A stretch of DNA of 64,000 bases, from the NCBI RefSeq assembly GCF_021532625.1, contig NZ_JAKGAR010000001.1:186001-250000 (forward strand), in the 5' to 3' direction. The first letter of the stretch is position 1, and every line of letters starts with the position of its first letter. Source of the DNA: Octadecabacter algicola. GTDB taxonomy: Bacteria; Pseudomonadota; Alphaproteobacteria; Rhodobacterales; Rhodobacteraceae. The notes under the pieces were generated by a model that saw nothing but the letters and a program-made list of their open reading frames with translations, did not search any database and was not told the DNA's origin. Of the stretch, positions 15,455 to 17,420 are shown one piece after another. Both the position numbers and the translations under genes were made by a program.

Positions 15455-16654
15455 ATGACGAAACCTGAGTGCAAGGCTCGGGCCGGGGAAGATGCGTCTA
15501 ACGCGGCGCTTACCCCAGTCAACGAGTTGAAGACCGCGATGGCCGGTTTTGTGACCGATTTCAAAGACTTCACGACTGATATTCAAATAAAGCTGAAAGA
15601 GCAGGACGACCGAATGACAAAACTTGACCGTAAATCCATGATCTCTGGCGCACGCCCTGCGCTGGCCACTGCTGCTTCTGTTGAGGCGCCTCATCAGAAG
15701 GCGTTTGAGTCCTATCTGCGGTCCGGCGATGACGATGCGCTACGTAGCCTGGAGATTGAGGGCAAATCCATGTCCACGGCTGTTGCTGCGGATGGTGGTT
15801 ATCTGGTGGATCCGCAGACATCTGCGAATGTTCAATCCACGCTGTCTTCTACGGCGTCGCTGCGAGCAATTGCGAATGTGGTGAACGTTGAAGCAACGTC
15901 TTATGACGTCCTGATTGATCACACTGAAATGGGTGCGGGTTGGGCCACAGAAACAGACCCGACCGCCGAAACGGGCACGCCGCAGATTGATCGTATTACG
16001 ATCCCGCTGCATGAGCTGTCTGCACTGCCAAAGGCATCCCAACGTTTGTTGGATGACACGGCGTTCAACATTGACGAATGGCTTGCGGGTCGTATCGCTG
16101 ACAAGTTTGCACGTTCCGAAGCAGCAGCGTTTGTGTCTGGTGATGGCATCGACAAGCCGACTGGTTTCTTGACGGCGCCACAGGTTGATAATGACGTTTG
16201 GGTCTGGGGTAACCTTGGTTACGTCGTGACGGGCGCGGATGGTGATTTTAACGGTGCGGATGCGCTGGTTGATCTCGTCTATTCATTGGGTGCGGAATAC
16301 CGAGCGGGTGCGGCCTTTGTGATGAACTCAAAGACCGCTGGCCTAGTGCGGAAGCTGAAAGACAATGACGGCCGTTTCTTGTGGTCTGACGGTCTGGTTG
16401 CCGGTGAGCCTGCGCGTCTGTTGGGTTACCCAGTGCTGATTGCTGAAGACATGCCTGATGTGGCGTCTGACAGTACAGCAATCGCATTCGGCGACTTTGG
16501 CAATGGGTACACTGTTGCGGAACGTCCTGATCTGCGCGTGCTGCGTGACCCGTTCAGCGCTAAGCCACATGTCTTGTTCTATGCGACCAAGCGCGTTGGT
16601 GGTGCGATCAGCGATTACGCGGCGATCAAGCTCCTTAAGTTCGGCCTGTCCTAA
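15455..16654 (+). CDS. Gene transfer agent g5, major capsid protein
   Basis: Builds the small head. The 399 residues are of HK97 type. The N-terminal part of about 100 residues contains a helical segment (VTDFKDFTTDIQIKLKEQDD) expected to act as built-in scaffold and be cleaved by the upstream protease. The capsid core follows, with GGYLVDPQTSANVQSTLSS, LPKASQRLLDDTAFNIDEWL and RFLWSDGLVAGEPARLLGYPV, ending FYATKRVGGAISDYAAIKLL. It is followed by an unusually structured 166-base gap rather than the next gene. Confidence 0.94.
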   Translation: MTKPECKARAGEDASNAALTPVNELKTAMAGFVTDFKDFTTDIQIKLKEQDDRMTKLDRKSMISGARPALATAASVEAPHQKAFESYLRSGDDDALRSLEIEGKSMSTAVAADGGYLVDPQTSANVQSTLSSTASLRAIANVVNVEATSYDVLIDHTEMGAGWATETDPTAETGTPQIDRITIPLHELSALPKASQRLLDDTAFNIDEWLAGRIADKFARSEAAAFVSGDGIDKPTGFLTAPQVDNDVWVWGNLGYVVTGADGDFNGADALVDLVYSLGAEYRAGAAFVMNSKTAGLVRKLKDNDGRFLWSDGLVAGEPARLLGYPVLIAEDMPDVASDSTAIAFGDFGNGYTVAERPDLRVLRDPFSAKPHVLFYATKRVGGAISDYAAIKLLKFGLS

Positions 16655-16669
16655 GGCCCACGGAACGGG

Positions 16670-16781
16670 CGCGGGGGCAAGCCTTCGCGTTCGGTCCGGG
16701 CGTGTGCAGTGCGCGAGCGACCCTCGCGTTGTCCAGTTGCTTCCTTCCGTCCGAGCAATGTGGGGGGCACGCGCCCGGATT
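16670..16781 (+). ncRNA. Candidate structured RNA element between capsid gene and g6
   Basis: The gap after the capsid gene folds strongly on paper. A first hairpin at 16670-16689 has eight pairs (two G-U) and a four-base loop. A long stem pairs 16696-16707 with 16767-16778: twelve continuous pairs with one G-U, extendable by about three more. Inside it are a hairpin at 16712-16728 (CGCGAG, loop, CTCGCG) and a weaker one pairing TTGCT (16737-16741) with AGCAA (16754-16758), giving a three-way junction. There is no T run, so it is not an ordinary terminator. It could tune the capsid-to-connector expression ratio or mRNA processing. Pairing is seen directly; function is inference. Confidence 0.45.
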
Positions 16782-16820
16782 TAGGACGGTATTTAATTTG
16801 GCACTTTTCGGAGTAAACCC

Positions 16821-17420
16821 ATGATGTTGATCGAAGAAACCAGCGTGCCAACAGTGGCATTGCCGGTTGCACAGTTCAAAGACCACCTGCGCCTTGGATC
16901 GGGGTTTTCCGATGATAGCGTACAAGACGGATTGCTGGAAGGGTTCCTGCGATCTGCGCTCGCCGCGATCGAAGCGCGCACTGGCAAAGCGCTGATCGAG
17001 CGCGATTTTAGCTGGACGTTGACGCGGTGGCGCGATGTTTGCGCACAAGCACTGCCGATTGCGCCAGTTTCGGCGATTATTGATGTTGTCTTGATTGATC
17101 GGGCGGGCACTGAAACGGCGATTGATGCTGGTTCCTATCAGTTGCGTCCAGATATGCAGCGTCCAGCATTGGAAGCATTTTCGGGGTCCTTGCCGACGAT
17201 TGGCAACGGCGGATCAGTTAAGATCACGATGCTGGCCGGCTTTGGCCCAGAGTGGGGGGATTTACCGGCGGATCTGGCGCAAGCAGTGTTTTTGCTGGCG
17301 GCGCATTACTACGAATTTCGTCATGAAGTTCAGTATGACGGCGGCTGCATGCCGTTCGGAGTAAGCGCGTTGATTGAACGCTACCGAACCCTGCGCATTT
17401 TGGGCGGAGGTGCGTCCTAA
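16821..17420 (+). CDS. Gene transfer agent g6, head-tail connector (adaptor) protein
   Basis: Adaptor that docks on the portal and links it to the tail stopper. The 199 residues begin MMLIEETSVPTVALPVAQFK and contain LEGFLRSALAAIEARTGKAL and DLAQAVFLLAAHYYEFRHEV, the helical pattern of phage gp6-like connector proteins. The ATG at 16821 and the next codon are both possible starts. The stop overlaps the next gene's ATG by one base (TAATG). Confidence 0.85.
   Translation: MMLIEETSVPTVALPVAQFKDHLRLGSGFSDDSVQDGLLEGFLRSALAAIEARTGKALIERDFSWTLTRWRDVCAQALPIAPVSAIIDVVLIDRAGTETAIDAGSYQLRPDMQRPALEAFSGSLPTIGNGGSVKITMLAGFGPEWGDLPADLAQAVFLLAAHYYEFRHEVQYDGGCMPFGVSALIERYRTLRILGGGAS

Follow-up and report, generated by a model that had tools for sequence, protein, structure and literature searches.

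The window analysed here, a 64,000-nt stretch of Octadecabacter algicola DNA (NZ_JAKGAR010000001.1), carries an RcGTA-type gene transfer agent (GTA) cluster. PHROGs assignments gave the gene order terminase, portal, protease, capsid, head-tail adaptor, head closure, tail terminator and major tail protein, with further tail genes in the same cluster. Between the capsid stop and the ATG of the adaptor gene (g6) lie 166 untranslated nt (16655-16820), hereafter the capsid-g6 gap (Table 1). An earlier note on this DNA had described a 166-base gap separating capsid and connector genes, and the open reading frames and PHROGs matches confirmed both its coordinates and the gene identities. No tRNA-like gene was found at the gap. 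A DNA search showed that the gap is present as a single copy in its own genome, as is its larger structured part (Module B, below) by covariance model at E ≤ 10, which excludes an interspersed, many-copy repeat of the REP/BIME type.

Table 1. Features of the capsid-g6 region, in window coordinates.
Feature	Position	Strand	Basis
GTA major capsid gene (g5-type), 399 aa	15455..16654	+	PHROGs phrog_10 major head protein, 1.9e-64; translation
Module A hairpin just 3' of capsid stop, 12 pairs (16666-16677 with 16682-16693)	16666..16693	+	fold
Module B closing stem P1, 5' strand	16696..16707	+	12/12 pairs with double compensatory changes
Clade-specific small hairpin P2 (UGC-GCGA-GCG, GNRA loop)	16710..16719	+	constrained folds, 15 relatives
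Module B inner stem P3, 5' strand (consensus pairs from 16723)	16721..16732	+	double changes in 7/10 pairs, one-sided in other 3
Module B conserved apical loop CCAGUUGCUUCCUUCCGUCCGA	16733..16754	+	many positions 93-100% conserved (71 non-redundant sequences)
Module B inner stem P3, 3' strand	16755..16766	+	covariation, constrained folds
Module B closing stem P1, 3' strand	16767..16778	+	alignment consensus, covariation
Adaptor-gene Shine-Dalgarno GGAG	16810..16813	+	sequence
Head-tail adaptor gene (g6-type), 199 aa	16821..17420	+	PHROGs phrog_442 head-tail adaptor, 1.5e-20

Folding and covariation of the gap

Folded alone, the Octadecabacter gap reached -71.8 kcal/mol (z = -1.40), and 20 of 200 shuffled sequences folded equally well. 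This single-sequence fold is strong but not exceptional, and being so modest it leaves the case for an RNA to family comparison; although its z is only -1.4, the covariation of the family rules chance folding out. The eight-pair hairpin that the earlier note had placed at 16670-16689 is present there and forms the core of a hairpin of about 12 pairs (16666-16693), designated Module A. The unbroken twelve-pair stem that it had drawn between 16696-16707 and 16767-16778 proved exact as well as conserved, and closes Module B. The three-way junction above this stem held only in part: it is possible in the Octadecabacter clade, where P2 lies between the helices, but it is not the family structure, most relatives forming one long bent hairpin. 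Octadecabacter and its kin carry an extra small hairpin within the 5' strand of the internal loop, usually GNRA-capped (GUGA, GCGA, GAGA), and for most of 15 relatives folds constrained to P1 and P3 with P2 were optimal or nearly so. In an MFE alternative of the Octadecabacter sequence, which differs by <1 kcal/mol, the P3 5' strand pairs upstream. Since P2 is confined to this clade, the junction is a lineage-specific addition, and the junction of the single-sequence MFE does not represent the family.

We compared the gap across 80 capsid loci of Rhodobacteraceae and relatives, together with loci of the Octadecabacter genus. A gap of similar size, as the earlier note had expected, was kept in essentially all of them, mostly at 140-190 nt and at 91-117 nt in a few. 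Capsid-g6 gaps of 66 Rhodobacteraceae were then aligned (alignment A1), and loop conservation was taken from 71 non-redundant sequences. The aligned gaps share a core containing a strongly conserved segment. This core, Module B, is a stem-loop of about 82 nt with two helices below a 22-nt loop. Its consensus comprises P1 (CCGGGCGYGYGC/GCRCGCGCCCGG), an asymmetric internal loop, P3 (NNYCGYGUUG/CRAYGCGRNN) and the loop CYAGCUGCUYCCYUCCGUCCGA, in which many positions are 93-100% conserved.

The results showed double compensatory changes in 19 of the 22 Module B pairs across the 66 sequences, among them every pair of the twelve-pair closing stem, so that the compensation looked for there runs along its whole length. 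Paired cells made up 94.1% in Module B compared to 85.5% after shuffling, and the covariation score was 0.427 against 0.254 ± 0.008 in shuffled alignments. Sliding the pair partners abolished the covariation signal, and the top pairs of a model-free mutual-information ranking were mostly those of the Module B structure. All of these tests, like the comparison of G-U with A-C cells below, allow for shared ancestry only in part. Averaged over the 66 species, folding z was -3.0 for the Module B core and -2.2 for the 5' hairpin (Module A). In a second alignment (A2), loop columns 41 and 61 hold A-C in most sequences and G-U in four; the exchange is an isosteric wobble, a hint that P3 may extend by one more, non-canonical pair.

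Within Module B, G-U and U-G cells numbered 371 compared to 29 A-C and C-A cells; G-U is tolerated and A-C avoided, indicating that the element acts as RNA of the coding (sense) strand. A small open reading frame within the gap is disfavoured by indels that are not multiples of three together with the G-U covariation. The same excess favours RNA over a DNA-level site, which, with a structural or assembly RNA resembling packaging or scaffold RNAs, would suit a location between head genes and a loop conserved beyond the needs of simple regulation. The single sense-strand position within the operon and the absence of the element from many GTA-bearing relatives also speak against either, and we regard both as very improbable. 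Taken together, the capsid-g6 RNA is almost certainly real, conserved, and under selection for both its structure and its loop sequence.

Two modules and their distribution

Every one of the 66 aligned species has Module A, a hairpin of 9-21 pairs that is constant in shape although its sequences are unrelated; it starts at a median of about 8 nt 3' of the capsid stop. In 38 relatives without Module B in the genome scan, the 55 nt after the stop had a mean z of -2.36, compared to -0.48 in a control stretch inside the capsid coding sequence; some of these 38 gaps still contain a diverged Module B core. The presence of the hairpin in these relatives too makes it the general rule, with the loop-bearing stem as an added module. 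Two Roseovarius-group gaps (L022 and L050) have a plain hairpin in place of the loop at the same site, e.g. CCGGUC-AUCCCCUCC-GACCGG, which looks as if the recognition loop had decayed and the stem been retained.

The covariance model of Module B gave exactly one match per genome in 76 of 150 Rhodobacteraceae genomes, and all 76 matches lay 38-87 nt 3' of the GTA capsid gene on the same contig and strand. Across a class-wide sample of 289 genomes, matches occurred only in the own genome and two others of Rhodobacteraceae; the roughly 284 sampled genomes from outside this family gave none, and no Module B match at E ≤ 1 came from 28 capsid loci belonging to other families. The genome scans were run with Infernal's stricter filters, so weak matches may escape them, and with the filters off a diverged Module B was detected at E < 0.01 in four further genomes. 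Many GTA-bearing Rhodobacteraceae have no recognisable Module B, which is thus dispensable in some lineages. At one locus of another family (L420, capsid 51% identical), the first 60 nt after the stop hold a hairpin, CCGCGCGCG...CGCGCGCGG, with the C-rich loop UCCCCUCCCUCCC; the model does not match it, and it could be a distant version of Module B or a chance likeness.

An extra open reading frame of roughly 100 aa stands between capsid and g6 at five loci (L143, L147, L164, L169 and L176) from genomes without a clear RNA. At L176, this frame separates g6 from a diverged element that remains at the capsid end, which speaks for an element coupled to the capsid message and not to the ribosome-binding site of g6. 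The unfiltered E value of the L176 element is 0.2, and homology there therefore rests on loop motif, position and fold.

Searching IMG/VR with the loop pattern returned at least 120 contigs (L181-L300). Among the matches listed, a capsid gene lay 64-109 nt upstream in 118 of 120, with the remaining two truncated at a contig end, and g6 lay downstream in 119 of 120. Because nearly all show the GTA capsid-g6 pair, these carriers are probably GTA clusters filed as viruses, not phages. An origin in known phages was rejected: the nearest capsid in a phage record is only about 44% identical, so that known phages yielded no carrier. When presence and absence of Module B were placed on a capsid tree with 138 rows, 18 changes were required, compared to about 37 after shuffling. 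We read this as a single old gain followed by repeated loss or decay, a history that the tree does not force.

Known RNA families and alternative roles

Rfam 15 gave no match at the gathering score over the whole 64-kb window and none on the element at E ≤ 10, while five relatives searched at E ≤ 5 returned one match only, unrelated and sub-threshold. No known RNA family thus fits the element or those relatives, and the earlier suggestion of an undescribed RNA stands. The texts searched on small RNAs of Ruegeria and Paracoccus and on GTA regulation made no mention of a capsid-g6 RNA.

CcsR/cuckoo small RNAs are hairpins with C-rich, anti-Shine-Dalgarno-like loops, a likeness that Module B shares. 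The element might accordingly be a small RNA released from the mRNA and acting in trans through its accessible, strongly conserved loop, much as RNase E matures the CcsR RNAs from a protein-sRNA transcript in Rhodobacter sphaeroides (PMC10253847). However, CcsR/cuckoo RNAs lie beside DUF1127 genes, in tandem in R. sphaeroides, whereas the capsid-g6 RNA is a single intercistronic element flanked by the GTA capsid and head-tail adaptor genes with no DUF1127 neighbour, and we rejected membership of that group. It also has no promoter or terminator of its own, is present once per genome and, among the matches listed, was never seen away from the capsid-g6 junction, all of which makes a trans-acting role improbable.

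The earlier observation that the gap lacks a T run was upheld: 16500-16900 contains no terminator-like site, there is no U-tract, and the 3' flank of P1 reads AUUUAGGACGG. This weighs against a transcriptional element, that is, a non-canonical (e.g. Rho-linked) attenuator 3' of the capsid gene or a read-through RNA of the put or EAR kind. Untranslated stretches within long operons are places for Rho action, making the 166-nt stretch a possible Rho site, and the functional terminator behind capsid gene 10 of T7 offers a precedent. EAR (epsC motif, RF01735) and HK022 put resemble the capsid-g6 RNA as structured RNAs working inside long operons, but they are unrelated to it in sequence and architecture, and no Rfam model matches it, including that of EAR, which we take to belong to the library used; anti-termination here is only hypothetical. 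In Caulobacter, control of the GTA cluster lies with terGTA and the anti-terminator GafZ, and there is support for CcGTA anti-termination involving NusA, NusG and NusE (PMC11150451). With terminators and an anti-terminator inside that cluster, a transcriptional role is conceivable for the capsid-g6 RNA, which is likewise a GC-rich inverted-repeat element inside a GTA cluster with possible control of downstream transcription. Identity with terGTA, the partner of GafYZ anti-termination, was nevertheless rejected, as terGTA consists of three 150-bp direct repeats after the first GTA gene and terminates transcription (PMC11150451), whereas the capsid-g6 RNA is a single copy after the capsid gene without a U-tract. 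We consider a transcriptional element rather unlikely overall.

The loop motifs CUCC and UCCG, C-rich and anti-Shine-Dalgarno-like, also suggest a translational operator, working either by a pseudoknot between UCCG and the adaptor Shine-Dalgarno (CGGA) or by a GTA protein that would bind the loop and shut off g6 translation, as the MS2 coat protein does through the replicase operator. The distance between the loop and the g6 start varies little (62-75 nt for the middle half of the matches listed), and the duplex of the loop with the downstream segment averaged -14.95 kcal/mol compared to -13.05 ± 0.32 kcal/mol with shuffled downstream sequence. However, partners swapped between species gave equal energy (-15.02 ± 0.24), so loop and downstream segment do not co-vary, and we rejected the loop-to-Shine-Dalgarno pseudoknot. 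Several close relatives of the Octadecabacter sequence reached only -7 to -8 kcal/mol, and some diverged relatives change the CUCC part of the loop yet keep UCCGUCCGA. Predicted accessibility of the g6 Shine-Dalgarno was 0.36 with the element, 0.355 with it removed and 0.33 with it shuffled; simple sequestration is unsupported, since the site is equally accessible with or without the element. A translational operator is, on this balance, unlikely.

A probable cis-acting element of the GTA message

With no U-tract, no support for Shine-Dalgarno sequestration and no co-variation between loop and downstream segment, a cis-acting intercistronic mRNA element is favoured, and the capsid-g6 RNA probably acts in cis on the GTA message. 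Far more capsid than connector subunits are needed. Judged from its position, the universal post-capsid hairpin and this subunit need, differential expression of capsid and the genes that follow would be the most economical reading: through the element, one operon could supply capsid subunits in large numbers and connector and tail proteins in small ones. The model that we prefer, to which we give a probability of about 0.5, is a two-module element in which hairpin A would stop 3'-to-5' decay or mark a processing end, so that the capsid part of the message would outlast the remainder, and loop B would be recognised by a factor, either protein or RNA, that tunes how the message of the downstream genes is processed, read through or translated. 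A set capsid/connector ratio and mRNA processing, which the earlier note had put forward as candidate roles, agree with where the element lies and with the hairpin-after-capsid arrangement.

Among the closest parallels is the puf operon, which belongs to this bacterial family too. Its protein stoichiometry is set by ribonucleases and RNA-stabilising elements through segmental mRNA stability (PMC11354728), with strong hairpins separating highly expressed upstream from less expressed downstream cistrons of one operon (pufBA-pufLMX). A strong hairpin directly after the upstream stop of a polycistronic operon is equally the rule at the GTA gap, both in 66/66 aligned species (9-21 pairs) and in the 38 relatives without a clear Module B. 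Unlike puf, the GTA gap also holds Module B, whose stem covaries and whose loop is nearly invariant; the operon is that of a domesticated phage, and the stabilising effect is only putative.

It counts against the preferred stabiliser-plus-factor model that a nearly invariant loop is superfluous for a mere stabilising hairpin and that many GTA-bearing Rhodobacteraceae do without a recognisable Module B. Tentatively, the loop may be the binding site of a dedicated factor, such as the capsid protein, the adaptor or a host RNA-binding protein, and could form an autogenous, MS2-operator-like switch that times or doses head assembly and is kept in roseobacter domesticated phages.

GTA regulation has so far been studied chiefly at promoters (CtrA, GafA, GafYZ/IHF). 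A conserved RNA in the GTA structural operon would constitute a layer of control after initiation, its nearly invariant loop offers a bait for the discovery of binding factors, and the covariance model provides a marker for roseobacter GTA clusters.
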